DNA from: Oceanitalea stevensii
GTDB lineage: Bacteria > Actinomycetota > Actinomycetes > Actinomycetales > Actinomycetaceae
Assembly: GCF_014837105.1 (NCBI RefSeq)
Contig: NZ_JACSPO010000001.1
Span: 997,662 to 1,061,661 of the forward strand
Direction: 5' to 3'
Length of the DNA: 64,000 nucleotides
Positions 881-30,060 of this stretch are shown one piece after another. The position numbers and the translations under genes are program-made. Under the pieces are notes generated by a model. That model had not been told where the DNA came from. It did not search any database and worked only from the letters and a program-made list of their open reading frames with translations. Positions within the stretch are counted from its first letter, which is position 1, and each line of letters starts with the position of its first letter.

Positions 881-912
881 GGTGCTCCTTCCTCTGCTGG
901 TCGGGTGGGGGT

Positions 913-948
913 GGGTGGGGGCCCGCCGGGGGGTGCGTGCCCCCACCC
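913..948 (-). terminator. GC-rich hairpin between TasA-like gene and sipW
   Basis: A perfect 10-bp stem (GGGTGGGGGC with GCCCCCACCC) encloses a 16-nt loop in the 77-nt gap between the TasA-like gene and sipW. No T-run follows. It could attenuate transcription so that less peptidase than substrate is made, or it could stabilise the upstream mRNA. This reading is structural inference only. Confidence 0.4.
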
Positions 949-957
949 GGGGGGCGC

Positions 958-1593
958 TCAGAAGCCGCCGACGCCTCCGTCACGCACCTGCGTGAGGGTC
1001 ACGTCGAAGGCCTCGAGCGCGGCCTGGGCCTCGACGAGGTCGCGCTCGGCGACGTCCTCGTCGAAGGTCACGCTGAGGACGACCTCGAGGTTCGGGGTGC
1101 CGGTGAGCGCGGCGGGCAGCGTGTGGAGCGGGGCCACGTTCTGCGAGTTGTCCGCGGAGGCGAAGCGCAGGGGCTGCGCCGCGGCGAGCGGGGTCGCGTC
1201 GACGATGGTCTCGCCGTCGAGACGGACCTCGTAGGTGGCGTGCTCGGCGAGCTCGGCGAGGAGCTCGCCGTCGCCGGTGACGCCGAGGCGGTCGAGGGAG
1301 AGCTCGGCGACGAGGTTGTCGCCCTGGAGCGCCGCGCTCAGGGGCAGGGTGCCCTCGACGGTGTCCCCGGGGACGATGCGGAAGGTGTCGAGGGTGATCT
1401 CGTGGTCGCCCTGGGTGCGGTCCGCCGAGACGTCCTTCCACGACACCTCGCCGGCCTCGACGTCGAGGTTGCCGGAGGTGATGACCCCGCCGGCGACCTC
1501 GGCGCTGTCGTTCCACAGCGCGAAGGTCGCGCCGCCCATGAGGAGGGCCGCGCCAGCGGCTCCGGCGACGAGGCCCGTGGTCTTCTTGTTCAT
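958..1593 (-). CDS. SipW-dependent exported TasA-like protein
   Basis: This 211-residue secreted protein has a short Lys-rich start (MNKKTTG) and a hydrophobic core. It then shows GGATFALWNDSAEV and VITSGNLDVEAG, the hallmark of alternate-signal, SipW-processed proteins of the TasA/CalY type. The mature part is acidic and beta-rich, without cysteines or a membrane anchor. It starts with ATG preceded by AAGGA. GATCAC occurs 19 nt upstream of the start, as it does near three neighbouring genes. It lies 90 nt downstream of a VWA adhesin gene and 77 nt upstream of sipW, suggesting one operon. Fibre formation is known for Bacillus TasA. Here it is inferred. Confidence 0.85.
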   Translation of the reverse strand: MNKKTTGLVAGAAGAALLMGGATFALWNDSAEVAGGVITSGNLDVEAGEVSWKDVSADRTQGDHEITLDTFRIVPGDTVEGTLPLSAALQGDNLVAELSLDRLGVTGDGELLAELAEHATYEVRLDGETIVDATPLAAAQPLRFASADNSQNVAPLHTLPAALTGTPNLEVVLSVTFDEDVAERDLVEAQAALEAFDVTLTQVRDGGVGGF

Positions 1594-1683
1594 GTTCGTG
1601 TCCTTAGCTGGTGTGATCGGTGACGGCGCGTGCGCGCCTCACCTGACCGAGCGGAGGGGCTCGGGCAGTCTTGGGGGTGAGGG

Positions 1684-3909: not shown

Positions 3910-4115
3910 GGTGTCGTGCTCCGCCCGTGATCGATGACGAGGGGAAGCACACCAGCCGGACGGGCCGCTGCGGGGGCCCGCAGCGAGTGACCGGGAGACG
4001 ACTGCTCGGGCGCACGCGGGCTAGTCACGACGCGGCGCGCGACGGCGGGGGTGAGAGCGGGCGGGCCACGCTGACGGCGCCGCCCCACAGGACCCGCGGC
4101 ATCCTGCTAAAGAAG

Positions 4116-4149
4116 GAGGGTGAGCCCTACTTTCGTAGGACTCACCCTC
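4116..4149 (-). terminator. Second terminator-like hairpin after giant VWA gene
   Basis: The stem is GAGGGTGAG, one C/A opposition, then CCTAC, with the loop TTTC and the matching arms. In minus-strand RNA the C/A opposition becomes a U-G wobble, so the hairpin is fully paired only when transcribed leftwards. It lies about 280 bp after the stop of the giant VWA gene. Confidence 0.55.
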
Positions 4150-4236
4150 ACCTCACCCGGCGCGTCGACGCACCCCCGTCGCGAGCATCGCGCACCGGCA
4201 CCTCGGGCGGACCGGGGTCCACATGCTGAGAGATGC

Positions 4237-4271
4237 GCGGACGGGGCCGTCCTGAGGACGACCCCGTCCGC
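4237..4271 (-). terminator. Terminator-like hairpin after giant VWA gene
   Basis: The stem is about 16 bp (GCGGACGGGG, a C/A opposition, CGTCC) with a TGA loop, 160 bp downstream of the LPPTG protein gene. As in the hairpin at 4116-4149, the single opposition is a U-G wobble in minus-strand RNA. No T-run follows, as is common for terminators of high-GC actinomycetes. Confidence 0.6.
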
Positions 4272-4431
4272 CGGCCACCGAGCCGGTGCGGGACTGACGC
4301 CTGGCGCCGATCACAAACGCCCTGCGGTCCCGGCGGCCGTGGGGGCCGCCCGCGTCCTCACCTGCCGGGCGGTGCTGATGAGGACACGGTGCGGGAGGTG
4401 GGGGCCGGGCGACCGGCCCCCACCAGCTCTG

Positions 4432-11064: not shown

Positions 11065-12246
11065 TCAGACCCGCCGTGTCGCTGAGTGCTCGGAGTAGAC
11101 CTCGAGGAGGCGTCGTCCGGCAGCCTCCCAGGTGACCCCCTGCGCCGTCCGCAGCGCATCCCCGCGCAGCCGGTCGAGCGTGCCGCGGTCGCGGGCCAGC
11201 CGCGTGAGGTGGTCCCTGAGCTGGCGGACGTCGCCCGCTCGGTGCACGAGCGCGTTCTCGTCGTGGCGACAGATCTCGGTGCACGCGTCCGAGACCACCG
11301 GCACGCTCCCGGACGCCATCGCCTCGATGCACACCAGACCGAAGCCCTCCTCCAGGCTCGGCAGCAGGGTGACGTCGGCGTCGGCCATGAGGTCGGGCAG
11401 GTCGTCACGGTGTCCCAGCACCCGCACGCTCGGGTGCGCGAGCTCCTTGCGGAGCACGGCGGCGTACTCGGGCATGATGCCGCCGGCGATCAGCAGCACG
11501 CCGTGCTCGGCGAGCGGGGAGCCGAGCCACGCCTCCAGGGCGAGGTGGAGCCCCTTCCGGACGGCGGCGTAGCCGGCGAAGAGCGCGGTGAAGGGACGCT
11601 CCGGCTCCCTCCGCGGCCGTGGGCCGAAGCGGTCGAGGTCGACCCCGTAGGTGTGCCGGACGAGCCTGGCGGGTGAGGTGCCCTCGTCCACGAAGGTCCG
11701 TGCGACGAAGTCGGACGGGCAGAGCAGCCAGTCGGCGAGCGCGAACTCCGCCTCCTCGACACGCAGGACATCGGCGTCGTAGGCGTGCTCGGAACCTTTG
11801 GGGAGGACGATCCCGAGTCGCTCGCTCTCCGCCGCCACCGTCTCGTACGCGAAACGCGTGTGCGCGTTCGGACGCTCGAGGAACGTGGGGATGCCCAGCG
11901 AACGCGCGACCGCGAGGGTGTGCCGAGCCCCCCGCGGCCACACGTGAATCACGTCGGGCTTCGTCGTCATTCGACGGAGCTGTCGCGCCACTAGGCGGTC
12001 GTGCCACTCGCACGCCCGCGTCATGCCCAGGACCCGGTAGGGGACACGCAACCTGCCGCGGCTCAACGTCGTCCGAACCGTGATGTCTGTGGGGAGTACC
12101 CGCGCGACCGACCCCGCGAGCACTGTGACCTCTGCGCCCGCGCCATGGAGCCCGAGCACCTGTTGCCATGCCGTGTAGCAGACCCGTCCAGCGCCCAGCC
12201 GCTGTGGAAAGCTGTACAGGACGCGGACCGGCTCAGTCCCGCTCAT
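11065..12246 (-). CDS. Family 4 glycosyltransferase
   Basis: This GT-B fold glycosyltransferase has 393 residues. The N-terminal half begins RVLYSFPQRLGAGRVCYTAW. The C-terminal donor-binding half contains LFAGYAAVRKGLHLALEAW and the GT4 signature SLEEGFGLVCIEAMASG, with the Glu pair expected to contact the nucleotide sugar. It starts with ATG preceded by AGGAGG 5 nt upstream and overlaps the Wzy-like gene stop by 4 nt (ATGA). It is therefore the last gene of the Wzz-Wzy-GT4 operon, and probably adds a sugar to the polysaccharide repeat unit at the inner membrane face. Its specificity is unknown. Confidence 0.88.
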   Translation of the reverse strand: MSGTEPVRVLYSFPQRLGAGRVCYTAWQQVLGLHGAGAEVTVLAGSVARVLPTDITVRTTLSRGRLRVPYRVLGMTRACEWHDRLVARQLRRMTTKPDVIHVWPRGARHTLAVARSLGIPTFLERPNAHTRFAYETVAAESERLGIVLPKGSEHAYDADVLRVEEAEFALADWLLCPSDFVARTFVDEGTSPARLVRHTYGVDLDRFGPRPRREPERPFTALFAGYAAVRKGLHLALEAWLGSPLAEHGVLLIAGGIMPEYAAVLRKELAHPSVRVLGHRDDLPDLMADADVTLLPSLEEGFGLVCIEAMASGSVPVVSDACTEICRHDENALVHRAGDVRQLRDHLTRLARDRGTLDRLRGDALRTAQGVTWEAAGRRLLEVYSEHSATRRV

Positions 12247-13742
12247 GTCGCCTCCTGCCGCATCACCGCTGCTCTCCGACGATGCTGCTCTCTCGCGCGG
12301 CGGATCCGTCCCTGGACGTCGGCGAACAAGGGCGCGGCCACGTACGTGCCGCCGCTGTCGACGACCGGGCTCCCTCGCCCGACCTGCTCCATCCTCCACA
12401 GCGCTCCTACCGCACCGATGCTCACGACGGTCGTCCCGACGAACGTCGCGAACCCGAATGAGTCGAACGTCCCGCTGGCGAGGAGACCCGCGGGAAAGAT
12501 CACCGCGAGCGCTTGTCCGAGATGCCGCGCCTCCTCGGTGGCCGCACGGAGCCGGACACTGCGGGCCATGAAGTACGGAACGGCGAAGAGAGCCAGGAAC
12601 GCCGCCAGCCCGACCACGCCCCCGCCCACCAGCGTTCCGAAGAGCTGGTTGTCGAGCAGGATGTACCGCTCGGGAATGACTGTTCCGGCCCCTCGCCCGA
12701 GCCACGGCCTCTCCTCGAACATCCGAGAGACGAAGGCCTGGTCGGCGATCCGGTTCTGCACGCTCGGGTCGTTGTCCATGTTGGTGAACATGGCTCGGAT
12801 GGTCCCCAGGACTCCCCGGTTGACGAGGTGAAAGACAGCCGTCCCGACCAGCGCGATGGCAAGGACGTTGTACCGGCGCCGCCACGGCCACACGAGCCCG
12901 AGCATCACCATCGTCACCGCCACGGTGAGGATGGCGGAGCGGGAGATCGACAACGGGATCGCGGAGGCGATCAGGGCGACGCACACCCAGTTTCCCACTC
13001 GGGCACGGCCTGGTGGACTGAAGAAGCCGTAGTGCAGAGCGATCGGCAGGACGAGAGCCAGGACGACACCGAACTCGATGTAGTGGTTCGCTGTGCCCGC
13101 CACGCGAGCGAAGTCTCCGTCCCCGCGGGCGCCGACGCCGATGAGCTCTGAGTTGTGCCGCAGGCCGGGAATGCGGATGTACCGCGTGAGATCGACGATC
13201 CGGGCGAACTGAAGGATGCCGACGAACGCCATGGTGGCAGCCAGGGCCACGAGAGTGCGCAGCAGGGTGTCGAGCTGCCGCCGCGTGACAAGACCGTCCG
13301 TGACCGCGAGTGTCACCCCCACCATCGCGACGGTGAGGATCAGCCACCGGTCCGCGGCATTCGCCTCGACCTGCGGGAGGAGCCGGTCGTAGCCCACGGC
13401 GTAGCCGACGAGCTGGACGGCGAGGAAGCCGCCCAGCAGCCAACGCACGGGCTGACGGCCGGGGGGCAGCCGACGCGGTCGGCGCATCGAGACGCACCAC
13501 AGGAAGGCGAGAAGGATCCCGACGGCGACCGACGGGCGTCCCACCGCCCCGAGACCACCGATGACGAGCCTCGCAGGGATGAGGAACTGGAGGACGAGGA
13601 AGGTGATGAGCAGGGCGAGTGCGCTGATCTGGCGGCGCCGTACCAGCACCGGCTGCCACTCCCCCACACGGGCAGGCCGGCGCAGCAGGACCGGCTCGAA
13701 GTCCTCGTGACGGCGCGTGCGCCGCTCCGTTCCCGTACTCAC
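12243..13742 (-). CDS. Wzy/O-antigen ligase family polysaccharide polymerase
   Basis: This 499-residue integral membrane protein has about ten to twelve hydrophobic segments and a large extracytoplasmic loop between them. The pattern is that of the Wzy_C/O-antigen ligase family, including RVAGTANHYIEFGVVLALVLP and FEERPWLGRGAGTVIP. It probably polymerises lipid-linked repeat units outside the membrane. It starts with GTG overlapping the Wzz-like gene stop by 4 nt (GTGA), without its own strong ribosome site, and ends overlapping the GT4 start. A ligase role is possible, but its place next to a Wzz-like protein favours a polymerase. Confidence 0.82.
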   Translation of the reverse strand: MSTGTERRTRRHEDFEPVLLRRPARVGEWQPVLVRRRQISALALLITFLVLQFLIPARLVIGGLGAVGRPSVAVGILLAFLWCVSMRRPRRLPPGRQPVRWLLGGFLAVQLVGYAVGYDRLLPQVEANAADRWLILTVAMVGVTLAVTDGLVTRRQLDTLLRTLVALAATMAFVGILQFARIVDLTRYIRIPGLRHNSELIGVGARGDGDFARVAGTANHYIEFGVVLALVLPIALHYGFFSPPGRARVGNWVCVALIASAIPLSISRSAILTVAVTMVMLGLVWPWRRRYNVLAIALVGTAVFHLVNRGVLGTIRAMFTNMDNDPSVQNRIADQAFVSRMFEERPWLGRGAGTVIPERYILLDNQLFGTLVGGGVVGLAAFLALFAVPYFMARSVRLRAATEEARHLGQALAVIFPAGLLASGTFDSFGFATFVGTTVVSIGAVGALWRMEQVGRGSPVVDSGGTYVAAPLFADVQGRIRRAREQHRRRAAVMRQEAT

Positions 13743-15067: not shown

Positions 15068-16534
15068 ATGACCCTGCGCACCGACCGCTACCAGGACGAC
15101 GACCAGGCGCTCCCGCCGACCGCCGTGACCGGTGAACGGCTGCGCGCGGCCCGCTCGGGCCTGCCGTGGCGCGCCGCGGTCACCCGGTACCTCGCCGCGC
15201 TCGCCGTGGCAGACCTGGGTCTCACCGCGCTCGCTGTCGCCCTGCTCGTCCGGCAGGAGCACGACCCCGTCATGGTCACGGCCCTGGCCGTCGCAGCCGG
15301 ACTGGGTCTGGTCCTCGCCGTGGCGGCGTGCCGTGGCTACCGCACCGCCTGCGCGACCTCGACCGTCGAGGACCTCTCCAGCCTCGTGCGGGCGGCGGGT
15401 GTCCTCGCGCTCGCCTCGCTCGTCGTCCACTACCTCGGTCTCGCACAGGTCCCCCGGTCGCTGTTCTTCGAGGCACTGGCCCTGTCGCTGCTCCTCGCCG
15501 GCCTGGCCCGGCTCGTCGCCCGCCCCGTGCTGCGGCGGCTGCGCTCCCGGGGCACCTTCCTGCGCCGCACGCTCGTCGTCGGCCCCGTGGACGGCCTCGG
15601 TCACCTCTTCGACGTGCTCGACGAGGCGCAGTCCCGCGGGCTCGTCGTCGTCGGCGTGTGCACACCGACGACCGACGACATCGGCAGCCGCAGTCCCGTC
15701 CTCGGGCGGTACGCGGACATACCCGACCTCGTGCGCACCCTCGACATCGACGCCGTCGTCGTCTCGGGCGGGGCGATGGAGGCCGCCGACCTGCGCCGTC
15801 TCGGCTGGCAGCTGGCGCCGCTCTCCGCCGAGATGCTCGTCCTGCCCTCGATCACGGAGGTGGCGCCACGCCGGCTGCAGCTGGAGTCGCTGGGCGGGAC
15901 CCCGCTGCTCGGCGTCACCCTCAGGCCCCCTCGTCCCTCCCTGTGGTCCAAGGCGGTCTTCGACCGGGTGCTGGGTGGCCTGCTCCTGCTCGCGGCGCTT
16001 GCCGTCATCGTGCCCGCAGCCGTCGCCGTGCGCCTCACCTCACCGGGTCCGGCCTTCTTCGTGCAGACCCGCGTCGGACTCGGTGGCCGCCCCTTCACCA
16101 TGTACAAGCTCCGCTCGATGTACACCGACGCCGAGGCCCGCCTGGCCGAGCTGGCCGACCGCAACGAGGGCAACGGGATGCTCTTCAAGCTCCGCGAGGA
16201 CCCTCGTGTGACGCGGGTCGGTCACGTGCTGCGGCGTCTGTCGATCGACGAGCTGCCCCAGCTGTGGAACGTCGTCCGGGGCGACATGTCCCTCGTCGGT
16301 CCACGGCCGGCGCTGCAGTCCGAGGTCGACCGCTTCACCGGTGACGTCCACCAGCGCCTGCGGGTGAAGCCAGGCCTCACCGGTCTGTGGCAGGTGAGCG
16401 GCCGCTCCAACCTCTCCATCGAGCAGTCGGTGCGCCTGGACCTCCGGTACGCCGACAACTGGTCGGTGCGCATGGACATCCACATCCTGTGGCGCACGGC
16501 CCATGCCGTGCTGAGTGGCAACGGTGCGTACTGA
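15068..16534 (+). CDS. Polyprenyl glycosylphosphotransferase (exopolysaccharide initiation)
   Basis: This 488-residue membrane enzyme transfers a sugar-1-phosphate from a nucleotide sugar to undecaprenyl phosphate and starts the repeat unit. About four N-terminal membrane segments and a cytoplasmic Rossmann-like domain are followed by a fifth hydrophobic segment near residue 305. The C-terminal bacterial sugar transferase domain contains FFVQTRVGLGGRPFTMYKLR, RRLSIDELPQLWNVVRGDMS and LVGPRPA, and later KPGLTGLWQVSGRS. I chose the ATG at 15068, with GAGGTGG upstream. A GTG at 15059 is an alternative. It leads the seven-gene plus-strand operon. The first sugar cannot be told from sequence. Confidence 0.93.
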   Translation: MTLRTDRYQDDDQALPPTAVTGERLRAARSGLPWRAAVTRYLAALAVADLGLTALAVALLVRQEHDPVMVTALAVAAGLGLVLAVAACRGYRTACATSTVEDLSSLVRAAGVLALASLVVHYLGLAQVPRSLFFEALALSLLLAGLARLVARPVLRRLRSRGTFLRRTLVVGPVDGLGHLFDVLDEAQSRGLVVVGVCTPTTDDIGSRSPVLGRYADIPDLVRTLDIDAVVVSGGAMEAADLRRLGWQLAPLSAEMLVLPSITEVAPRRLQLESLGGTPLLGVTLRPPRPSLWSKAVFDRVLGGLLLLAALAVIVPAAVAVRLTSPGPAFFVQTRVGLGGRPFTMYKLRSMYTDAEARLAELADRNEGNGMLFKLREDPRVTRVGHVLRRLSIDELPQLWNVVRGDMSLVGPRPALQSEVDRFTGDVHQRLRVKPGLTGLWQVSGRSNLSIEQSVRLDLRYADNWSVRMDIHILWRTAHAVLSGNGAY

Positions 16535-17474
16535 CGCCTCCGGGACCACCCCCGCGGGCACGGGGGTGGCGGTGCTCGGGTCCGTCGTGGTCCCTGCCCA
16601 CGACGAGGCGGCGGTCATCGGCCGCCTCCTCCTCGCGCTCCGCTCCGGCGGCCCCGACCTCGAGGTCGTCGTCGTCGCGAACGGCTGCACGGACGCCACT
16701 GCGGAGGTCGCCCGGGGCGTCCCGGGCGTCCGCGTCCTCGAGACGCCCGTGCCGTCGAAGATGCACGCGCTCGCCCTCGGGGACGGGCACGCCTCGCGGT
16801 TCCCCCGCTTCTACGTCGACGCCGACGTCGTCATCGGCGCCGACGGCATCGGCGAGCTCGCCGCTGCCCTGCAGGCACCCGGCGTCCACGCCGTCGGACC
16901 CGCCCGTCACCTCGACCTCGCCGCCTCGAGCTGGCTGGTACGGGCGTACTACTCGGTGTGGTGCCAGCTGCCCGGTGTCCAGCGGGAGCTGTACGGCCGC
17001 GGCGTCATCGGCGTGGACGAGGCGGGCCACCGACGGTTGGCCGGGTGGCGGGACACGATGGCGGACGACCTCCTCACCGCCATGAGCTTCGCCTCCGAGG
17101 AGCTGCGGGTCGTCCCCACCGCCGAGGTCGTCATCCGCGCCCCTCGGGAGTACGGGGACCTCCTGCGCCGACGGGTGCGGGCGATGACCGGCAACCGCCG
17201 GCTCGCCCGCGACCCTGCCGCTCCACCGCTGCGCGGTGCGGGCGGCGGCGTGCCGACCATGGCCGCCCTCATCCGGCGCGACGCCCGGCTCCTGCCGGCC
17301 GTCGCGGTCTTCCTCGGCACCGCGATCCTCGCCCGTGCCCGCGCCCGCTGGGCCCTGGCCCGCGGCAGCACCACCTGGCTGCGCGACGAGAGCAGCCGGC
17401 GGGTGGACCCACCCTCCGGCCCCGTCTCCCCCGCGACCGCCGCCTCCACCCTCCGAGCGGAGCGTTCCTCATGA
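16515..17474 (+). CDS. Family 2 glycosyltransferase
   Basis: This GT-A glycosyltransferase has about 319 residues. The core reads GSVVVPAHDEAAVIGRLL, then VVVANGCTDAT, and YVDADVVIG carries the DxD-type metal site. The C-terminal part has a hydrophobic helix and Arg-rich tail that may touch the membrane. The start is GTG at 16515 (overlapping the sugar transferase gene by 20 bp) or GTG at 16524. Translation coupling is likely in either case. The stop overlaps the ATG of the giant secreted protein (ATGA). It probably adds a sugar to the lipid-linked intermediate made by the upstream enzyme. Confidence 0.83.
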   Translation: MATVRTDASGTTPAGTGVAVLGSVVVPAHDEAAVIGRLLLALRSGGPDLEVVVVANGCTDATAEVARGVPGVRVLETPVPSKMHALALGDGHASRFPRFYVDADVVIGADGIGELAAALQAPGVHAVGPARHLDLAASSWLVRAYYSVWCQLPGVQRELYGRGVIGVDEAGHRRLAGWRDTMADDLLTAMSFASEELRVVPTAEVVIRAPREYGDLLRRRVRAMTGNRRLARDPAAPPLRGAGGGVPTMAALIRRDARLLPAVAVFLGTAILARARARWALARGSTTWLRDESSRRVDPPSGPVSPATAASTLRAERSS

Positions 17475-20400
17475 CCCGCACCACGGCCCGCAGCTGGGCC
17501 GCCGTCATCGCCCTCACCCTCCTCGCAAGCCTGCTCGGGACCCTGCCCGCAGCCTCGGCCGACGACCCGCAGATCTCCTTCAGTCTGGAGAAGAAGCGCA
17601 AGTCGCCCTCAGTGCTCGACGGCGCCACCGTCGACGGTGTCATCCACCCGTTCCTCACCGCTGACACCGGTGTCACCGCGGTCAGCTGGTGGCTCGACGA
17701 CCCGGCAGCAGCCGGGCAGCCCGTGCGGACGGACACGACCTCACCCTTCGACTACGCGCCCGGCTCCACGTCACACGCCTCCGGTTCGTTCGACACCGCC
17801 GCGCTTCCCGACGGGGAGCACACGATCACGGCACACGTGACGACCGGCGCCGGGGTCGTGACGCGTCACGCCACCTTCACCACGGACAACGACGTCCCGG
17901 CTCTCTTCACGACGTCCCGCTCTGCCGTCACGCTCACGAGCGTGGAGGGCGGGCCAGCGGCGAGCACGACCGTCGACATCGGTACCTCCGACGGCACTCC
18001 ACGCCCCTTCACGACCACCGACTCGGCCGACTGGCTGACAGTTGCCCCCTCGAGCGGGACCACGCCCGCGACGGTCTCGCTCACCGCGGCTCCCGGCCTC
18101 CCGGTCGGTACCCATACCGCCGAGGTCACCCTCGCGAGCCCGGACCTGCCGAGCACGGTCGTCACCGTGACGCTCACCGTGTCCGCCGCGCCACTGGAGG
18201 ACTTCACGGTGGTGCACGGCAAGGACGCCAAGCGCTCCAGCCCCAGCCCGCTCGACGGCGCCGAGGTCTCCGGGAACATCTACCCGCTCCTCGCCCCGGA
18301 GACCGACGTCACCTCGACCTCGTGGTGGCTCGACGACCCGCTCATGGGCGGCGCGCCCGTCCGCACCGACGGTGCGGCCCCCTTCGACTTCGGTCCCGGT
18401 TCCGTGGCACACCGCGCGGCACCGCTCGACACGACGACGCTGGCCGACGGCGAGCACACGATCACCGTGCGCGTGACGACGACGGACGGCGCCCAGCACG
18501 TCTCGACGGCCACCTTCACCACCAGCAACGGCTCGAACGCCCTGGCGTGGGAGCAGGACTCGCTTGTCGTCGAGGCCGGCGACGGGCCCCAGGTGCACAC
18601 CCTCACCCTCTCCGCCGGCGAGGCGGGCACCGTCGCCTCCCTGTCCAGCGACGCGCCGTGGCTCTCGGTCACGTCACCGACCGTGTCCCTGCCGGGCACG
18701 GTCGAGGTCCGCGTCGACCCGTCCGGCCTTGCCGGCGGTACCCACACGGGGCGCCTCACCGCGACCGCCGACGGCGCCGTCTCCGCCGTGCTCACCGTCT
18801 CGTTCCTCGTCGAGGCCGCGCCTGGTCTGGTCGTCGACCCGGGCGCCCTGTCCGTCACGGCACTCGTGGACGGGGCACCGGTGGAGGCGTCGCTGGTGGC
18901 GTCCGCGAGCGACGGCTCGGCCCTGCCTCTCACGGTCTCGGGCTCGGTCCCGTGGCTGGCCGCCGACCCGTCCACGACGGCAACCCCCGCCCAGCTCACG
19001 GTCTCCGCCGACCCGACGGGCCTCTCCGCGGGCACGCACACCGGCGAGCTCGTCCTGTCCTCGCCCGACCTGCCGGACGTCACCGTCCCAGTGACGCTCA
19101 CTGTCCAGGACGGCTCCCCGTTCCAGGTGGTGACGGGCGTCGACGCGAAACGACGCTCGCCCGCACCGCTCGCCGGACGCACGGTCAGCGGAAACATCTA
19201 CGCCTTCCTCGCGCAGACCGAGGGCGTGTCCTCGACGTCGTGGTGGGTCGACGACCCCGAGCGGACAGGGGCACCGCTCCGCACGGACTCAGCTGCCCCC
19301 TTCGACCTCGCCCCCGGCTCCGTCGCCCATGCGGCCGCCCCCTTCGACACCTCGCTCGTGCCCGACGGCGAGCACACGGTGACGGTCGCGGTCCTCACCT
19401 CCGACGGCACGACCCGCGTCGTCCACACCGCCTTCACCACCGTCAACGACACGAACTCACTCACGTGGGCCCCGGTGACCCTCGAGGTGCCTGCCACCGA
19501 GGGCGGGCAGGTGCAGGAGCGCCAGGTCGCGCTCACCGCCACGGCGCCCGGGACCACGGCCCAGATCGAGAGCACGGCCCCCTGGCTCAGCGCCACGACG
19601 AGCCAGGAGACCACCCCGGCGACCGTGGACGTCCTCGTCAACCCGGCGGGCCTGTCCGCCGGTGTCTGGCACGGCGAGCTCGTCGCCACCTCGGCCGGTG
19701 CGTTCACCGCCGTCCTGCCTGTCACGCTCGTCGTCGGTGACCCGGGCGGCTGCGCCCCGGTGTCCTGCGAGCTCATCAAGGTCGACACGCCCTACAACCT
19801 CGGCTTCCGGTACGAGGCGAAGGGGATCATCGACGTCGACGGCGTCGGCACCGGCTTCACCACTCTCCTGCCGCGGCCGGACGACACGGAGTACGTACGC
19901 GAGCGTCTCGAGGTCGACCTCGGCGAGGGCACCCTCGACATCACCGGCAGTGCCGGCTCGGTCAAGGAGAACACCCTCGACAACGCCCTCGGCGTGGGCT
20001 TCGACGGCCCGACGGCCACCACGGTCCTCACCGCCACCATCGCCGGCCCGCCGACGACGACGGGGAAGTACGAGCAGGCGGGGATCTGGTTCGGCTACGA
20101 CCAGGACCACGTCGACCGTGTCGCGCTCGTCAGCACCCCGCAGGGCTGGCGGGTCGAGCACGTCCTCGAGGTGGACGGCACCGAGGTCGCCAGGCGCAAC
20201 TCCCCCTACCTCACCATCCCCAGCGACGTCCCGGTCGAGCTGTCGATCCGCGTCGACCCCGGCACCCGACAGGCGACGGGCTACTACCGGGTGGGGGATG
20301 GTGGTCAGTCCGCCGTTCGCAGCTTCGACGTGCCCGGTGAGTTCTTCAGCTTCGACGCCGCAGGTATCGACCCGCTCATCGGCACCCGCAGCTTCGGCGG

Positions 20401-22561
20401 CGTCTTCGCGAGCAGCCGCAGCGCCACGAAGCCGGCCGAGTTCCGCTTCTCCCAGTTCTCTGTCACCGGCGAGCACGACCCCGCGGACGTCGCAGACTTC
20501 CCCTTCGACCGGTACTCCGTGCCCGTCCCGTTCCCCACGTCGATGGCCTACGGCCCGGACGGCAAGCTCTACGTCCAGTCGATGTTCGGCAAGATCTACA
20601 TCCTGTCCTTCGCGCCGGACGGCACCGTGAGCAGCACCCAGGTGGTGTCCACGCTCGGGACACGTCTTGCGCTCGGCCTGGCCGTCGACCCTGCCTCCAC
20701 CCCGAGCAACGTCATCGTGTGGGCCGGCCACTCCTCCCCCTCCGCCGACGACGGCGAGGCGGACTCGAGCATCGTCTCGCGCCTGTCCGGGCCAGGGCTC
20801 AGCTATCGCAGCGACGTCGTCACCGGCCTGCCCCGGTCGATCGCCAACCACGGCACCAACGCCATCCACTTCGGCAGCGACGGACGTCTCTACATCGCCC
20901 AGGGCGGCAACACCGGCGCGGGCGCTCCGAACACGGCCAACACCGAGTTCGGCGAACGCGCCGAGCAGCCGCTGTCCGCGGCTCTCCTCGTCGCCGACGT
21001 CAAGGCCCCCGGCTTCGACGGCGACTGCGCCGACCCGAACGACATCTACCTGTCCGGGGACTGCGACGTCACCGTCTTCGCCTCGGGCCTGCGCAACACC
21101 TATGACTTCGTCGAGCACTCCAACGGTCATCTCTACGGGCCGAACAACGGCCTGGGCGTCGTGGGCAGCTACCCACCTTCACCCCAGGCCCCCTGCACCG
21201 GCTTCGGCGACACGCGCCCGTGGACGCAGGGCGGGCACAACCCCGGCAACCAGAACGACGTCCTCAACCTCATCGAGGAGGGCCGCTACTACGGCCACCC
21301 CAACCCCGCGCGCGGGGAGTGCGTCTTCAAGGACGGCAGCTACCAGAGCACCCAGCCGTCGCCCACCTACACCCCGCCCATCGGGGACCTGGGGGCCAAC
21401 CGCTCGGCGAACGGCATCATCGAGTTCGGCGGTGACGCCTTCTGCGGGGCGCTCGACCAGCACCTCCTCATCACCAACTACTCCGTGGGCGACGACATCA
21501 CCGCGGTGACGCTCTCCGCGGACGGACGGTCCGTGGTGCGCACGCAGAGCATCGTGGGCGGCTTCACCGACCCGCTGCCGATCACGCAGGCTCCCGACGG
21601 CCGAATCGTGGTCGGGGAGTTCGCCGGATCGGGCGGCCAGATCACCTTCCTCACCCCGCGCGACATCGGCTGCTGGGCGCAGGAGGCACCTCTGCCCGTC
21701 GCGGTTCTCGACGCCGGTGGGGTCGCGATCAGCGACGCCCTCTACGTCGTCGGCGGGAAGGGGCCGGACGGCCACTCCACCCGCGCCTACCGGTACGACG
21801 TTCCCGAGGGCACATGGACGAGGGTGGCCGACCTGCCCGGGCCCGGGGTGGAGAACCCGGCAGTCACCACGGACGGCACCCGCCTCCTCGTGCTCGGCGG
21901 CTCCACCGCCCCGTTCTCCGGCGCCGTCGCCACGGCCTGGTCATACGACCCCGCGACCGACACGTGGTCACCACTGCCGTCCATGCCCACCGCCCGTGGC
22001 GGGGCCACCGCCCAGGTGGTCGACGGCCAGGTGTACGTCGCCGGTGGGATGACCGCCGACGGGGCGTCCACCGCCGTCGTCGAGCGGCTCGACCTCGCGG
22101 GCGGGACCTGGCACACCGCCCCGGCGCTCGCGACGGCGAGGGACAACCCCGGTTCCGCCGTGGCCGACGGCGTCCTCTACGTCTTCGGCGGCCGCACCCG
22201 CCTGGCCAACGGGCAGACACCGGCGGGCACGCTGGGGTCCATGGAGGCACTGCACCCCGCCGCCGGTGGAGGGTGGTCGCCGCGGGCGCCCATGCCGACC
22301 GCACGACGGACGATGGCGAGCGGTGTCATCGACGGACGGATCGTCGCCGTCGGCGGCGAGGCACGGCCCGACGGCCTGCCCTTCGACGCGACCGAGGTGT
22401 ACGACCCGGCGACCGACACGTGGACGACACTGCGCCGTCAGCCCACCGCCCGGCACGGCGCCGCAGCGGGCGTCGTCGACGGACGCCTGCACACCGTGGG
22501 TGGCGCCCAGTTCGCCGGCGCGGCCGCGAGCAACGTGCACGAGGTCCTCACCCTGCCCTGA
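17471..22561 (+). CDS. Giant secreted beta-propeller and kelch protein
   Basis: This 1696-residue secreted protein has a signal peptide (cleavage after about residue 33, near PAASA-DD). Three copies of a roughly 100-residue module lie at about 35-145, 246-360 and 552-665. Each has a KRxSPxxLDG-like start, a SWWxDDP core and a DGEHT motif. BACON-like beta-sandwich domains separate them (THTGxL and VTLTV strands). A concanavalin-like region (about 765-1000) and a six-bladed propeller resembling sugar dehydrogenase folds (about 1005-1400; NHGTNAIHFGSDGRLYIAQG) follow. A C-terminal kelch propeller (about 1405-1696; repeated YDPATDTW) ends it. It overlaps the upstream GT gene by 4 nt. No anchor is seen. 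Polysaccharide binding or modification is inferred. Enzyme activity is unproven. Confidence 0.85.
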   Translation: MTRTTARSWAAVIALTLLASLLGTLPAASADDPQISFSLEKKRKSPSVLDGATVDGVIHPFLTADTGVTAVSWWLDDPAAAGQPVRTDTTSPFDYAPGSTSHASGSFDTAALPDGEHTITAHVTTGAGVVTRHATFTTDNDVPALFTTSRSAVTLTSVEGGPAASTTVDIGTSDGTPRPFTTTDSADWLTVAPSSGTTPATVSLTAAPGLPVGTHTAEVTLASPDLPSTVVTVTLTVSAAPLEDFTVVHGKDAKRSSPSPLDGAEVSGNIYPLLAPETDVTSTSWWLDDPLMGGAPVRTDGAAPFDFGPGSVAHRAAPLDTTTLADGEHTITVRVTTTDGAQHVSTATFTTSNGSNALAWEQDSLVVEAGDGPQVHTLTLSAGEAGTVASLSSDAPWLSVTSPTVSLPGTVEVRVDPSGLAGGTHTGRLTATADGAVSAVLTVSFLVEAAPGLVVDPGALSVTALVDGAPVEASLVASASDGSALPLTVSGSVPWLAADPSTTATPAQLTVSADPTGLSAGTHTGELVLSSPDLPDVTVPVTLTVQDGSPFQVVTGVDAKRRSPAPLAGRTVSGNIYAFLAQTEGVSSTSWWVDDPERTGAPLRTDSAAPFDLAPGSVAHAAAPFDTSLVPDGEHTVTVAVLTSDGTTRVVHTAFTTVNDTNSLTWAPVTLEVPATEGGQVQERQVALTATAPGTTAQIESTAPWLSATTSQETTPATVDVLVNPAGLSAGVWHGELVATSAGAFTAVLPVTLVVGDPGGCAPVSCELIKVDTPYNLGFRYEAKGIIDVDGVGTGFTTLLPRPDDTEYVRERLEVDLGEGTLDITGSAGSVKENTLDNALGVGFDGPTATTVLTATIAGPPTTTGKYEQAGIWFGYDQDHVDRVALVSTPQGWRVEHVLEVDGTEVARRNSPYLTIPSDVPVELSIRVDPGTRQATGYYRVGDGGQSAVRSFDVPGEFFSFDAAGIDPLIGTRSFGGVFASSRSATKPAEFRFSQFSVTGEHDPADVADFPFDRYSVPVPFPTSMAYGPDGKLYVQSMFGKIYILSFAPDGTVSSTQVVSTLGTRLALGLAVDPASTPSNVIVWAGHSSPSADDGEADSSIVSRLSGPGLSYRSDVVTGLPRSIANHGTNAIHFGSDGRLYIAQGGNTGAGAPNTANTEFGERAEQPLSAALLVADVKAPGFDGDCADPNDIYLSGDCDVTVFASGLRNTYDFVEHSNGHLYGPNNGLGVVGSYPPSPQAPCTGFGDTRPWTQGGHNPGNQNDVLNLIEEGRYYGHPNPARGECVFKDGSYQSTQPSPTYTPPIGDLGANRSANGIIEFGGDAFCGALDQHLLITNYSVGDDITAVTLSADGRSVVRTQSIVGGFTDPLPITQAPDGRIVVGEFAGSGGQITFLTPRDIGCWAQEAPLPVAVLDAGGVAISDALYVVGGKGPDGHSTRAYRYDVPEGTWTRVADLPGPGVENPAVTTDGTRLLVLGGSTAPFSGAVATAWSYDPATDTWSPLPSMPTARGGATAQVVDGQVYVAGGMTADGASTAVVERLDLAGGTWHTAPALATARDNPGSAVADGVLYVFGGRTRLANGQTPAGTLGSMEALHPAAGGGWSPRAPMPTARRTMASGVIDGRIVAVGGEARPDGLPFDATEVYDPATDTWTTLRRQPTARHGAAAGVVDGRLHTVGGAQFAGAAASNVHEVLTLP

Positions 22562-22613: not shown

Positions 22614-23930
22614 ATGACCACCAACAGCACGACGTCCACCACCTCCCAGCTGTCCGCGAGGGGTGCTCGGTTCGTCGTCGCGGGAGCTCCTCTCGACAAC
22701 GACAACCGAGGGGTCGAGGCACTCGGCAGCTCCGTCGTCGCCCACCTGGCCTCCGCGGAGTCGGTCGACACCGTGAGTGTCCTCGGCGACGGCTGGGGCG
22801 TGCGCGCCGATGGCTCGTGGCCGGGACACGCACGGGTGGACAGACTCGGCGTGCGTAACTCACGCCGCTGGCACCGGCGCGAGAGCTGGACCCGCATCCG
22901 GTTCGACCAGGCGCTCGGCGGCCTCGGGAACCCGGTGGCCACCCGGCTCGCGACAGCGGACGCCGTCCTGGACCTCAGCGGGGGTGACAGCTTCACGGAC
23001 CTCTACGGCGCTCGGCGACTCACGACCGTCTGCGCCCCCAAGGAGGCCGCGCTACGGGCGGGCCGGCCACTCGTTCTCCTGCCGCAGACGTTCGGACCTT
23101 TCACGACGGAGGAGGGCCGTCGCCGCGCGGAGTACCTCGTCCGCAGCTCGGCCCTTGCCTACGCGCGGGACGCGTGGAGCTACGAGCAGCTGCGCAGCCT
23201 CGCCGGCCCGTCCGCGGACCCCAGCAGGCTGCGGCAGGGCGTGGACGTGGCGTTCGCACTCCGTGCTCGCACGCCGGACGGCTCGATCGTCGACGAGCTC
23301 GCCGGGGTCGACGGCGAGGTGCTCGTCGGGGTGAACGTCAGCGGACTCCTGCGTGAGGAGTCGGCGGTCGAGCGGTTCGGCCTCGCGGGGCCGTACCTCC
23401 CCACCATGGTCTCGATGGTGAGAGCCCTCATCGGGGCGGGGGCGGTCGTCTTCCTCGTGTCGCACGTGCACGGGGCCGGTCCGACCGAGAACGACGCGAC
23501 TGCCATCGAGGCGGTCGAGGAAGCCCTGAGCCCCCGCGAGCGCACGCGCGTCCGACGCCTGTCGCCGCACCTGAGGGCCGCCGAGCTCAAGTGGTGCATC
23601 AGTCACTTCGACTGGTTCACCGGTTCACGCATGCACGCGACGATCGCCGCACTGGGATCGACGGTCCCGGCCTTCGGCTACGCCTACAGCGACAAGGCCC
23701 GCGGGGTGTTCGGCACCTGCGGGGTCGCCGACGAGGTTGTCGACGCTCGGGCGGTAGCCGGGCAGGAGGCCGTCGAGCTGGCCCTCGCCTCCTTCGCTGC
23801 CAGGGACGCGACGCGAGAGGTGCTCCGCCGTCGTGTGCCCGAGGTCGTGACCCAGTCCAGGAACCAGCTCGAGGAGGTACTCACCGCCGCCCTGTCGTGG
23901 CGCACGCAGCCTCCCGGGGCGGTCACATGA
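22614..23930 (+). CDS. Polysaccharide pyruvyl transferase
   Basis: This 438-residue enzyme belongs to the CsaB-like pyruvyl transferase family, which puts pyruvate ketals from phosphoenolpyruvate on surface polysaccharide sugars. The N-terminus shows AGAPLDNDNRGVEALGSSVV. The middle has LDLSGGDSFTDLYG and PLVLLPQTFGPF. The C-terminal part carries the family signature WFTGSRMHATIAALGSTVPAFGYAYSDK (given here only as a landmark, with HATIAA and YSDK as key parts). It starts with ATG preceded by GGAAGG, 52 nt after the giant secreted protein gene, and overlaps the FrhB-like gene by 4 nt. Pyruvylation gives the polymer negative charge and can create binding sites for surface proteins. Confidence 0.9.
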   Translation: MTTNSTTSTTSQLSARGARFVVAGAPLDNDNRGVEALGSSVVAHLASAESVDTVSVLGDGWGVRADGSWPGHARVDRLGVRNSRRWHRRESWTRIRFDQALGGLGNPVATRLATADAVLDLSGGDSFTDLYGARRLTTVCAPKEAALRAGRPLVLLPQTFGPFTTEEGRRRAEYLVRSSALAYARDAWSYEQLRSLAGPSADPSRLRQGVDVAFALRARTPDGSIVDELAGVDGEVLVGVNVSGLLREESAVERFGLAGPYLPTMVSMVRALIGAGAVVFLVSHVHGAGPTENDATAIEAVEEALSPRERTRVRRLSPHLRAAELKWCISHFDWFTGSRMHATIAALGSTVPAFGYAYSDKARGVFGTCGVADEVVDARAVAGQEAVELALASFAARDATREVLRRRVPEVVTQSRNQLEEVLTAALSWRTQPPGAVT

Positions 23931-25165
23931 TCGGCCAGCTGCCCCGGTCCATCCCGGAGGTCGTCGCCTCGCACCTGTGCACCGGCTGCGGGGCGTGCGC
24001 GTACGTCGCCGGTGACGCCCTCACGATGCACGACGTCCGGACCGTCGGGCGCCGCCCACTGCCCATCGCCGCTGTCAACGGCTCACTCACCGGCGACGCA
24101 CTCGCCGTGTGCCCCGGGCGGCAGCTCGAGCACCGCCCTGAGGCGCTCGACGGCGCCCCCTTGCGCGGGGAGTGGGGGCCGGTGCTCGCCCTGTACGAGT
24201 GCTGGTCCACCGACCCGGACGTGCGTCACCGCGGCTCCTCGGGAGGGGTGGCTACCGCGCTCGCCGCCCACGCCGTGACGAGTGGCCGCGCGACCGGCGC
24301 CCTCCAGGTCCAGGCCGACCCCGACGACCCCCTGCGCAACGTCACCGTCCGCAACACCACGTACGAGTCGATCACAGCGGCCACCGGCTCGCGGTACGCG
24401 CCTGCCAGTCCCTGCGAGCGCCTCGACCTCGTCGAGCAGGCCGAGGGCCGTACCCTCTTCGTGGGCAAGCCCTGCGACGTCGCGGCCGTGCGGAACGTCG
24501 CCGCCATCCGGCCTGCTCTTGCGGAGCGGCTCGACGTCACCGTGGCGATCTTCTGCGCGGGGACACCCTCCACGGCGGCGACGGAGGACCTCGTCCGATC
24601 TCTCGGCACCGACATCGAGGACGTCGTGTCCGTCGACTACCGCGGCGAGGGGTGGCCAGGGAACTTCCGGGTGCAGTCCGGTTCCGGCGAGGTCCGGAGC
24701 ATGACCTACGCCGAGGCCTGGAACGGCACGCTGACGAAGAACCGCCAGTGGCGCTGCCTCATCTGCCCGGACCACACCGGGGAGTTCGCCGACCTGTCCG
24801 TCGGGGACCCGTGGTACCGCGAGATCGGTCCCGACGAGCCGGGCCGGTCACTCGTCGTCGTGCGGACCGAGGCCGGGCGCGCGGCGCTGCTCGCGGCTCT
24901 GTCGGACGGCGCTCTCGACGGCGACCTGATCCCGCTGGAACGTCTCGAGCAGAGCCAGCCGAGCCTGGCCGCCACCCGCGGGGCGGTGTGGGGCCGGGTC
25001 CTCACCATGGGCCTCATGGGCCTGCGGGTGCCGCGCTACCGGAACGTGCCGGCGTTGCGGCTGTGGCTTCGGCTGCCGCTGCGCGGCAAGGTCACCTCGA
25101 TCGCCGGCACCTACCGCCGCGCACGCCTGCGCGGCCTGAACCGACCGGAAGTGAGCGCCCCGTGA
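23927..25165 (+). CDS. FrhB-like (F420 hydrogenase/dehydrogenase beta subunit family) protein
   Basis: This 412-residue protein is related to the coenzyme F420 hydrogenase beta subunit (FrhB N- and C-terminal domains). Iron-sulfur-type cysteines are visible in LCTGCGACAYV near the N-terminus, in VGKPCDVAAVRN and in WRCLICPDHTGEFADLSVGD, a strongly conserved segment of the family. Relatives often sit next to pyruvyl transferases in polysaccharide clusters. There they probably perform a redox step on a sugar or cofactor rather than hydrogen metabolism. The gene overlaps the pyruvyl transferase by 4 nt (ATGA) and the next GT by 4 nt (GTGA). Substrate and flavin or F420 use are not known. Confidence 0.85.
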   Translation: MIGQLPRSIPEVVASHLCTGCGACAYVAGDALTMHDVRTVGRRPLPIAAVNGSLTGDALAVCPGRQLEHRPEALDGAPLRGEWGPVLALYECWSTDPDVRHRGSSGGVATALAAHAVTSGRATGALQVQADPDDPLRNVTVRNTTYESITAATGSRYAPASPCERLDLVEQAEGRTLFVGKPCDVAAVRNVAAIRPALAERLDVTVAIFCAGTPSTAATEDLVRSLGTDIEDVVSVDYRGEGWPGNFRVQSGSGEVRSMTYAEAWNGTLTKNRQWRCLICPDHTGEFADLSVGDPWYREIGPDEPGRSLVVVRTEAGRAALLAALSDGALDGDLIPLERLEQSQPSLAATRGAVWGRVLTMGLMGLRVPRYRNVPALRLWLRLPLRGKVTSIAGTYRRARLRGLNRPEVSAP

Positions 25166-26996: not shown

Positions 26997-28544
26997 CTAC
27001 GCCTTCGCGTCTCCCCGACGCCTCGTCCGGACGGACTCGACAAGGCCCGACAGCTCCCGCCTCGCCGACGGCCACACCATCATGGCGGCCGCCCACACGA
27101 CCAGGGCAGCGGCCACCACGGCGGCGAGAGTGAGGAAGACCGAGTCCTCCCGGGCGACGACCGAGCGGACCACGACCGAGACCGCGAGCACGCCTCCCGC
27201 GATGACGGCGGGCCGCGCCATGGCCCGGAAAGGGTCCGAGAGCCTCACGGGGCTGTTCCGACAGGCGAGGACGAAGCCGGGCACGAAGAGCGCAACCTGG
27301 CTGATGGCGTACGAGGCCGCCACGCCCTCCACACCCCACCGGACACCCACGAGGAAACCTCCCACCGTCACGATCCCTCCGACCACGGCCCACACGACGT
27401 ACGGCCGGCCGCGACCGGTGCTCGTGTAGATCCACCCGGTCGTCGTGGAGACGAGCTGGACAAAGCTCGCGACGGCGAGCAGCTGGAAGATGCGCGCAGC
27501 CGCCAACCACTGCTCCCCCAGTGCCACCAGGATGACCTCGTCCGCTGCGACAGCGAGGACCACGACGAGCGGCAGGCCGGCGTGGCAGAGGCCGCTGATC
27601 GCCGTCCGGTAGGCCTTCCTGTACCGCGCGGGCTCGCCCTGCAACGCTGCCAGGGTCGGCACCATGACGGCTTGCACCGGCGTCTTGAGCTGCTTGAGCG
27701 GGAGCATGAGCAGGCTGTACGCCCGCGTGTACAACCCCAGTGCGCCCGCGTCGAGGAACCTGCCGATGATGACGTTGTCCCCCTCTCGCGAGGCGGTGTG
27801 GAAGAGGCTCGCGACCGACACGTGGGCACCGAACCGCAGGAGCGGTACGGCGTCACCGAGGCGGCGGGGCCTGCCTGGTCGCCACGGGACGGCCCACCAG
27901 TTCAGCACAGTGGCAAGGAGGAGGGCACTGACGTTCTGGATGACCAGCGACCAGACCCCCATCCCAAGGAGCGCGGCCACGACCGCCGTCGCGCTCGCGA
28001 GGAGTCCGGCGGTGGCGTTGCGCAGTGCGATACGGCGGAACTGCATCGCCCGGTTCAGAAGAGCACCGTGCTGCACGGAGACGCCTGAGACGACGAAGCC
28101 TGCCCCGAGCGCGGCACAGATGGGGACGAGGGACGGCTCGTCGTAGAACGCGGCGAGCGGGAAGCCGGAGACGGCGACCACACCGGCGAGGACGATCCCG
28201 GCAGCTGTGTTGACCCAGAAGAGCGAGTTGACCTGGTTCCAGGTGAGGTCAGGTCGTTGGACCACGGCTTGGCTCAGGCCGAGCTGGCGGAACTGGGTGA
28301 CGACGACCGTGAGGGTCAGGGCCATCGCCATGAGTCCGAAGTCGGCCGGTGTGAGGAGCCGTGCGAGGACCATCGTGGTGGCGACCTGGACCGCCGCCCC
28401 CGTCCAGCTGCCGAGAAGAGTCCAGCCCATCCCCCGAGCCGCTGAGCGTCCCAGGTCGCCGTGCCGGACGGAACGGTGGAGCCACTCGTCGAGCTCAGGC
28501 ACCCCGCGGGCAGGCACACGGGATGCGTTTCGCCGGAGACGCAC
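26997..28544 (-). CDS. Wzx-type polysaccharide flippase (MOP superfamily)
   Basis: This 515-residue membrane protein has about twelve to fourteen hydrophobic segments. Its first core segment is GMGWTLLGSWTGAAVQVATT, followed by LARLLTPADFGLMAMALTL, typical of WzxC/TuaB-like flippases. These move lipid-linked repeat units across the membrane for polymerisation by Wzy. I chose GTG at 28544 because a perfect AGGAGGT lies 6 nt upstream. The frame is open to 28670, but that part has no ribosome site and begins immediately beside the terminator of the upstream gene. A promoter should therefore lie between about 28545 and 28674. The gene converges with the plus-strand polysaccharide operon. Confidence 0.87.
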   Translation of the reverse strand: MRLRRNASRVPARGVPELDEWLHRSVRHGDLGRSAARGMGWTLLGSWTGAAVQVATTMVLARLLTPADFGLMAMALTLTVVVTQFRQLGLSQAVVQRPDLTWNQVNSLFWVNTAAGIVLAGVVAVSGFPLAAFYDEPSLVPICAALGAGFVVSGVSVQHGALLNRAMQFRRIALRNATAGLLASATAVVAALLGMGVWSLVIQNVSALLLATVLNWWAVPWRPGRPRRLGDAVPLLRFGAHVSVASLFHTASREGDNVIIGRFLDAGALGLYTRAYSLLMLPLKQLKTPVQAVMVPTLAALQGEPARYRKAYRTAISGLCHAGLPLVVVLAVAADEVILVALGEQWLAAARIFQLLAVASFVQLVSTTTGWIYTSTGRGRPYVVWAVVGGIVTVGGFLVGVRWGVEGVAASYAISQVALFVPGFVLACRNSPVRLSDPFRAMARPAVIAGGVLAVSVVVRSVVAREDSVFLTLAAVVAAALVVWAAAMMVWPSARRELSGLVESVRTRRRGDAKA

Positions 28545-28725: not shown

Positions 28726-30060
28726 TCAGCGCACGGGCTTGCCCGTGTCGTGCCACACGTTGGTGTCGTCCCACGCGCTGGCCTCGTTCATGTTCCCGAC
28801 GGCGCCGTAGCGGAAGTCACGGCCGAAGTGGTTGCCGCTGTAGCGGGCGCTGTCGACCGCGCCGCCACTTCCACCGTTGATGGTGTAGTTGCCGCCGTTG
28901 AAGAGGTTGTCCTCGACCACGAGGTTGCTGATCGGGTCGTCCCCGAGGAGCGAGCCGATCTGGATCGCGGCGTTCATCGGGTCGTCGGTGTCCGCACGGT
29001 AAGCCTGGAAGTTGTTGCCGCGGAGGGTGATGTCGTCACCCTTGCGGATCTGCAGGCTGTCGTGGTGGCCGCCCTTCATCCGGTGCAGGCTGTGGATGAA
29101 GGTGTCCTCGACGGTGACGTCGTCTGCCTCGATACGGATCCCGTCCTCGGCAGAGTGGATGTTCGCTCCGCGGACCGTGCCGGCACCCTTGAAGAAGATC
29201 CCGATTCCGGTGCTGTTGAGGTTGTCGACCTCGACGTTCTCGATGAGAGCGCCGGTGACGCCCTTGTCGACCTTGATCGGGTACCCGTCGGTGGCGACCT
29301 CGACGATCGAGTTGCGGATGGTGACGTCGTCAGCCGCGATCGTGACGGTGCCGCGGATGTGCTTGGCCTCGACGACGGTCCCCGGCTCGGTGATCGTCAT
29401 CCCCTCGGACCGGGTGAGCTGGACGCCCTTGGGAACCCCGGTCGTCTTGGCGCTCGGGAACTCCGCGCTCGGCGCAGGCTCGGGCTTCGGGTCCGGCTTC
29501 GGAGTCGGCTCCGGCTTCGGGTCCGGCGTGGGAACCGGCTCCGGCTTCGGGGTCGGCTTCGGGGTCGGCTCAGGCGCCGGAGACGCGTCCGGTCGCTCGT
29601 CGGCGTTGAGGCTGAAGGCCTCACCATCGATCGTGCTGTCGACGACGATCGCCGGCTTGCCCTTCTGCGACATGAAGTCGTTGCGGCAGCCCTCGAGGGC
29701 CACGCGCTCGGCGTAGTAGTTGCCGAAGGTGATGCCGTTCGTCTTCTTCGGGTTCTCGCACTCGACGGTCGTGTCGATGATGCGGGCGTTCCTCACGTCG
29801 GATCCGACGCGGATGCTGTGGTTGCCCCCGTAGGAGACCTTCGTGTTCTTGATGGTGACGTCGTCCGCGAGGACGTGGATCATACCGTCGACGTGGAGCC
29901 CGTCGACGACGGTGCCGGGCTCGGTGATCGTCAGGCTTCCGGACGGGACCAGCTCGGTGTCGTCGGGGACCCCGACGGTCGCGGCTGCTGCCGTGCCGGT
30001 CACGAGACCGACGCCGCCCAGCGCGACGGCCAGGCTCATGAACGCGTGTGAAACTCGCAT
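28726..30060 (-). CDS. Secreted right-handed parallel beta-helix protein with Pro-rich linker
   Basis: This 444-residue secreted protein has a signal peptide (cleavage near GTAAA-AT, residue 26). A first set of beta-helix coils (about 30-150) shows DDVTIKNTKV and RIIDTTVECEN. A Pro/Lys/Glu linker of PTPKPEP type follows (about 157-198). A second, larger beta-helix (about 215-440) shows DDVTIRNSIVEV, EDGIRIEADDVTVEDTF and NLVVEDNLFNGGNYTING. Such folds occur in polysaccharide lyases, epimerases and tail-spike-like glycosidases. HHDSLQIRKGDD could be an active-site loop, but no catalytic set can be assigned. It probably binds or trims the polysaccharide made by this locus. The Shine-Dalgarno is weak (AGAAAGAG), so a start at the second Met (residue 8) is possible. 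Confidence 0.82.
   Translation of the reverse strand: MRVSHAFMSLAVALGGVGLVTGTAAAATVGVPDDTELVPSGSLTITEPGTVVDGLHVDGMIHVLADDVTIKNTKVSYGGNHSIRVGSDVRNARIIDTTVECENPKKTNGITFGNYYAERVALEGCRNDFMSQKGKPAIVVDSTIDGEAFSLNADERPDASPAPEPTPKPTPKPEPVPTPDPKPEPTPKPDPKPEPAPSAEFPSAKTTGVPKGVQLTRSEGMTITEPGTVVEAKHIRGTVTIAADDVTIRNSIVEVATDGYPIKVDKGVTGALIENVEVDNLNSTGIGIFFKGAGTVRGANIHSAEDGIRIEADDVTVEDTFIHSLHRMKGGHHDSLQIRKGDDITLRGNNFQAYRADTDDPMNAAIQIGSLLGDDPISNLVVEDNLFNGGNYTINGGSGGAVDSARYSGNHFGRDFRYGAVGNMNEASAWDDTNVWHDTGKPVR
29466..29590 (-). repeat. Low-complexity Pro/Lys/Glu linker repeats
   Basis: Repeated short units encode PTPKPEP- and PDPKPEP-type sequence between the two beta-helix parts of the secreted protein. This is a flexible spacer, and slippage in steps of 6 bp would keep the frame. 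Confidence 0.7.

Follow-up and report, generated by a model that had tools for sequence, protein, structure and literature searches.

What does a secreted protein of 1696 residues do in the middle of an operon that builds a polysaccharide? Gram-positive polysaccharide export loci have been described mainly through their enzymes of synthesis and export, and less is known about whatever acts on the polymer outside the cell. The question is raised by a gene at positions 17471-22561 (+ strand) of a 64,000-nucleotide stretch of the Oceanitalea stevensii genome (RefSeq assembly GCF_014837105.1, contig NZ_JACSPO010000001.1, positions 997,662 to 1,061,661), referred to here as the window. Translation of the open reading frame and comparison with its orthologs define a stalked double-propeller protein, and an earlier sequence-only reading, which placed the gene inside a polysaccharide operon with a 4-nt overlap with a glycosyltransferase gene, is confirmed. 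The protein begins with MTRTTARSWAAVIALTLLASLLGTLPAASA, read from sequence as a Sec-type signal peptide (residues 1-30; 17471-17560, +), and is predicted to be secreted via Sec. At its C-terminal end no membrane, LPXTG or SLH anchor is visible on inspection. With little more than even confidence, we favour a mostly non-enzymatic matrix or capsule protein which binds and organises the exported polymer.

Once outside the cell, the protein would act on or with the polysaccharide of the surrounding locus. Its N-terminal half, in which three modules bearing an SWWxDDP motif alternate with BACON-like domains, would be a long stalk, holding the head at a distance and probably contributing contacts to glycans. 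The concanavalin-like domain and two propellers that follow would form a binding head. The protein would probably act without catalysis, retaining the polymer after export, cross-linking it or organising it.

A tie to polymer synthesis, as first proposed, is upheld by the orthologs. Full-length orthologs with 91, 88 and 75% identity are present in three congeners, the close relatives being Georgenia satyanarayanai genomes, and occupy the same slot between a family 2 glycosyltransferase (GT2) gene and a pyruvyl transferase gene. In a genome from a different family of the same order (G434), the neighbours of a 1623-residue ortholog with 47% identity and three modules include Wzx, GT2 and Wzz-like genes. 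A tree of the glucose/sorbosone-dehydrogenase-like (GSDH-like) domain of the head unites the Georgenia, G434 and G750 lineages in one clade (100/100), apart from all other giant proteins, and two of these three ortholog lineages have their home in a polysaccharide locus. The gene is probably ancestral in the genus. In a fourth congener, G004 (L099:10972-11232), it is reduced to an 86-residue in-frame vestige, about 57 residues from its start being joined to about 29 from its end. The vestige still starts where the GT2 gene ends and the locus is otherwise intact, with synthesis genes 70-95% identical. As these genes were kept despite the loss, the pathway can be maintained without the giant protein, which is accessory to it.

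The overlap itself is less informative than was first supposed. The GT2 stop codon at 17474 overlaps the start of the giant gene as ATGA (17471-17474, +), which had been taken as a sign that production of the protein is coupled to polymer synthesis. Overlaps of 4 nt occur at 6 of the 47 same-strand junctions in the window, two of the others lying within the gene's own operon, and in congener G003 the two genes are separated by a 4-nt gap. Special translational coupling was rejected on these grounds.

The stalk, encoded on the + strand like the rest of the protein, contains SWWxDDP module 1 (residues 33-140; 17567-17890), BACON-like domain 1 (141-240; 17891-18190), module 2 (243-352; 18197-18526), BACON-like domains 2 (353-452; 18527-18826) and 3 (453-546; 18827-19108, with no module before it), module 3 (547-660; 19109-19450) and BACON-like domain 4 (661-765; 19451-19765). 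Four BACON-like domains are thus recognised by sequence, the third by sequence pattern only and the fourth by alignment with domains 1 and 2. The Pfam profiles stay below their cut-off of 25 bits in the giant protein, with 22.2 bits for BACON (PF13004) and 20.4 bits for BACON_2 (PF19190), both in domain 1, whereas a module-bearing paralog passes BACON_2 at 41.1 bits. The model of domain 2 matches residues 42-128 of the BoGH5A structure 3zmr_A (Z 12.5, rmsd 1.7 Å over 85 residues) and has the BACON fold. A spacer role for BACON domains has been put forward (PMC11216935). Identity to the G003 ortholog is 57-65% in the BACON-like domains, 68-78% in the modules and 78-85% in the lectin-like, GSDH-like and kelch domains. 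This order, with the BACON-like domains least and the head most conserved, is as expected if the stalk is a spacer and the head carries the function.

All three SWWxDDP modules that had been read in the sequence are present. Each spans about 105-110 residues, and identity to module 2 is 54% for module 1 and 62% for module 3. Each copy matches the module's hidden Markov model with an E-value between 1e-45 and 1e-49, far past chance, though the copies themselves are part of that model. The motif described as three-fold holds as DAKRxSP in modules 2 and 3; module 1 reads EKKRKSP. The model of module 2 shows seven Ig-like strands, with less certainty than for the BACON fold, as module pLDDT (per-residue model confidence) is 44-80 and the structure search took the module and BACON-like domain 2 together. 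No Pfam or NCBIfam model names the module above threshold, which agrees with the proposal that it is undescribed, but it does have a relative. The nearest family, Big_7 (PF17957; cut-off 24.1 bits), scores 22.6 bits in module 1 (E 1.7e-4), 15.3 in module 2 and gives no match in module 3. Module 1 thus comes near the cut-off, and the ending DGxHTITA is common to both. The module differs in scoring below 24.1 bits, in its length and in an extra WWxDDP...PFD segment.

The company that the module keeps elsewhere also points to polysaccharides. It is rare in the genomes surveyed, about 300 of actinobacteria and about 300 of the same order, and viral contigs yielded one module and no GSDH. In G480 and G581 it is the C-terminal domain of secreted glycanases resembling family GH26 (L096:9701-11077, L097:7409-8833, L097:16967-18355, L098:9901-11283), each having a Wzx flippase no more than 10 kb away; these are candidate polymer-trimming enzymes. 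The G434 locus includes a beta-helix protein with two SWWxDDP modules, and in G004 the module is found on a malectin-like/kelch protein about 12 kb from a priming transferase. Module loci lie near the flippase family PF13440 in four of six cases against 0.08 expected (P about 4e-7), at a distance chosen after the loci had been seen; the later addition of G750 makes this 4/7. Tentatively, the module may be an Ig-like domain, so far undescribed, that binds glycans or the cell surface and marks secreted proteins devoted to the polysaccharide which the cell itself exports, and the giant protein an unrecognised extracellular component of Wzy loci that organises, or modifies, the polysaccharide.

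The head begins with a concanavalin-like, lectin-like domain (residues 766-1005; 19766-20485) which is common to other giant secreted proteins. Its weak concanavalin-type matches (GH43_C2, DUF1349) are seen in relatives only, and a sequence search for the region found no solved relative. The GSDH-like propeller follows (1010-1400; 20498-21670), then a kelch propeller (1401-1696; 21671-22558), so that the lectin-like region and two propellers of the sequence-only reading are all present. Each part of the protein has a fold that is known or related to a known one. An AlphaFold model of the C-terminal part, built on three close sequences, is usable for the kelch domain only, as pLDDT is 20-50 in the lectin-like and GSDH-like domains.

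It is the GSDH-like propeller which raises the prospect of an extracellular sugar oxidoreductase, in which this domain would oxidise sugar residues of the exported polymer, using pyrroloquinoline quinone (PQQ) or something similar as cofactor, and the kelch domain, lectin-like domain and modules would keep it on the substrate. The domain scores 34.8 bits with Pfam GSDH (PF07995) against a cut-off of 25 and is, at 85% identity to G003, among the most conserved parts of the protein. Of its conserved residues H1127, R1208 and N1209, the His aligns with that of 3a9g, and the Arg-Asn pair is invariant in all ten aligned sequences from four phyla; the alignment did not extend to the later PQQ-binding Arg positions. 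A precedent exists in Streptomyces, in the genetic linkage between a kelch-type oxidase, GlxA, and the glycan synthase CslA (PMC3543389). Against this, the overall match to solved PQQ-type enzymes is weak (E 0.003). No PqqE was found over the cut-off in six genomes, namely G000, G003, G434 and three others, two of the six being Georgenia, nor did any control genome exceed it; the cofactor would have to be scavenged. We regard an oxidoreductase as unlikely, but as the foremost alternative to a binding protein.

The kelch propeller (Kelch_1, E 4e-45) bears on both binding and catalysis. Its model has six blades at a pLDDT of about 70, with a TM-score to Keap1/KLHL proteins of about 0.75-0.8 by target length. 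As the six-bladed Keap1-type kelch is a binding fold, it favours the binding reading. A kelch-propeller enzyme of the galactose oxidase or sugar mutarotase type, which would trim or modify the polymer, is suggested by Pfam matches to NANM and to Kelch_4, named for the central domain of galactose oxidase. However, the best structural matches are the six-bladed Keap1/KLHL-type binding proteins rather than the seven-bladed galactose oxidases (AA5), and mutarotase models reach 49.8 bits against a cut-off of 416. The protein stops at the last blade, with no C-terminal E-set domain in the Pfam scan. Of the residues that could serve a Tyr-Cys radical copper site, the kelch domain has a single Cys, at its start. 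Galactose oxidase was rejected on the six blades and the missing E-set domain, and a kelch enzyme of any such type is very improbable. The initial suggestion that the protein may oxidise, bind or organise the polymer therefore stands in part: binding and organising fit the architecture, while oxidation draws no support from a six-bladed kelch domain that lacks the galactose oxidase C-terminal domain or from the search for PqqE.

Beyond the ortholog group, giant secreted proteins with a GSDH-like propeller are scattered, occurring in 7 of 396 actinobacterial genomes and 19 of 396 genomes of the order. Some lie in or near polysaccharide loci (G007, G315 contig 15, G068, G179, G325 and G581); others sit outside them. 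In a first sample, three of nine GSDH-like proteins were within 20 kb of a priming transferase (P 0.0035). A second sample gives 4/14 at a looser 35 kb (P 0.0009), a distance chosen afterwards.

Several observations weigh against a protein dedicated to the cell's own polymer. At the 20 kb threshold, which was set beforehand, only one of 14 GSDH-like proteins in the second sample is near a priming transferase (P 0.25). The idea that the GSDH-like domain is linked to priming transferases in general was thus rejected, and the failed test limits the claim to the ortholog group and the module. The G750 ortholog, with five modules, sits among hydrogenase, nuclease and unrelated genes outside any polysaccharide locus. 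The O. stevensii genome itself encodes a paralog (L016:6564-9815) with three modules and BACON-like domains, likewise outside any polysaccharide locus, whose C terminus resembles purple acid phosphatases. Finally, the His at the sugar dehydrogenase position and the invariant Arg-Asn pair hint at a retained active site.

These outlying homes also bear on the idea that the protein is an adhesin, or a receptor, which recognises foreign glycans or surfaces and merely happens to be carried in the polysaccharide locus and regulated with it. Such a build, with several Ig domains in the stalk and lectin-like and kelch domains in the head, is typical of adhesins. Outside polysaccharide loci there are giant proteins with relatives of the head, and the G750 ortholog lies outside them as well. 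Conversely, the same slot is kept in Georgenia, the G434 ortholog is in a polysaccharide locus and the module is common to glycanases of other such loci. An adhesin is considered doubtful, marginally more so than an oxidoreductase. The preferred reading remains that of a protein which binds and organises the polymer of its own locus.

What kind of polymer this might be is indicated by the surrounding genes. Upstream are genes for a GT2, a family 4 glycosyltransferase (GT4), an O-antigen ligase/Wzy-like polymerase (12243-13649, -; PF04932, 48.6 bits), a chain-length-type protein, which has no Pfam match and is named by position and pattern, the priming polyprenyl glycosylphosphotransferase (15068-16534, +; TIGR03025, 391.8 bits) and the overlapping GT2 (16566-17474, +; PF00535), whose start is uncertain (16515 or 16566). 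Downstream are a polysaccharide pyruvyl transferase (22614-23930, +; PF04230, 75.8 bits), an FrhB/FdhB-like protein (23927-25165, +; PF04432), two GT2, a Wzx-type flippase (26997-28430, -; PF13440, 276 bits), a beta-helix protein and a GT28-like protein. The joint presence of Bac_transf, Polysacc_synt_3, Wzy_C and several glycosyltransferases identifies a Wzx/Wzy-dependent locus, and its polymer is probably pyruvylated.

Two further features of the neighbourhood are recorded here. The beta-helix protein of the locus (28726-30039, -) is secreted and has a Pro-rich region, and a distant relative of it in G434 bears two SWWxDDP modules. Beside the locus, at 293-9882 (-), is a set resembling the TasA-type matrix-fibre genes found beside exopolysaccharide genes. 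It encodes a SipW-like signal peptidase (293-880, -), a SipW-dependent exported protein (958-1593, -; TIGR04089, 107.9 bits against a cut-off of 60), a SpaA/VWA protein (1684-3909, -) and an 1816-residue protein with an isopeptide-type fimbrial domain (4432-9882, -).

A search of open-licence papers did not find this combination of domains, its locus home or the spread of the module, which is weak evidence of absence. A conserved secreted protein inside the locus, together with a module shared with glycanases, offers a marker for the extracellular half of such systems. The natural deletion in G004 already supplies a comparison.

Among known systems, BoGH5A of Bacteroides ovatus (3ZMR) resembles the stalk in its matching BACON fold, placed N-terminal to a glycan-related head and probably acting as a spacer. 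It differs in that the giant protein belongs to an actinobacterial synthesis locus, alternates its BACON-like domains with SWWxDDP modules and carries a propeller head with no hydrolase. The GSDH family (PF07995; e.g. 3a9g) is likened to the first propeller by a profile score over the Pfam cut-off and the conserved His. Compared with the soluble aldose sugar dehydrogenases, however, the subfamily is divergent: it has invariant motifs of its own and is joined to lectin-like and kelch domains, and no PqqE was found in the genome. GlxA is likewise a kelch-type propeller protein linked genetically to a glycan synthesis gene, CslA. Unlike this radical copper oxidase, the giant protein has six blades, no E-set domain, an extra GSDH-like propeller, a lectin-like domain and a stalk.

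A further parallel comes from two Deinococcus plasmids (L102:10542-26934 and L103:16200-32884), whose polysaccharide loci encode several NPCBM lectin proteins. On both, an NPCBM-GSDH protein is encoded in or beside an O-antigen-ligase/glycosyltransferase cluster, in one case ~75 bp after the priming transferase. The likeness is thus of a lectin and GSDH-like propeller adjoining the priming transferase, as in KNUC1210, and of an NPCBM-malectin-kelch protein between glycosyltransferases, one of which it overlaps by 4 nt in QL22. The Deinococcus proteins use other carbohydrate-binding domains, with no SWWxDDP stalk seen, and what is divided between two separate proteins there is a single fusion here.

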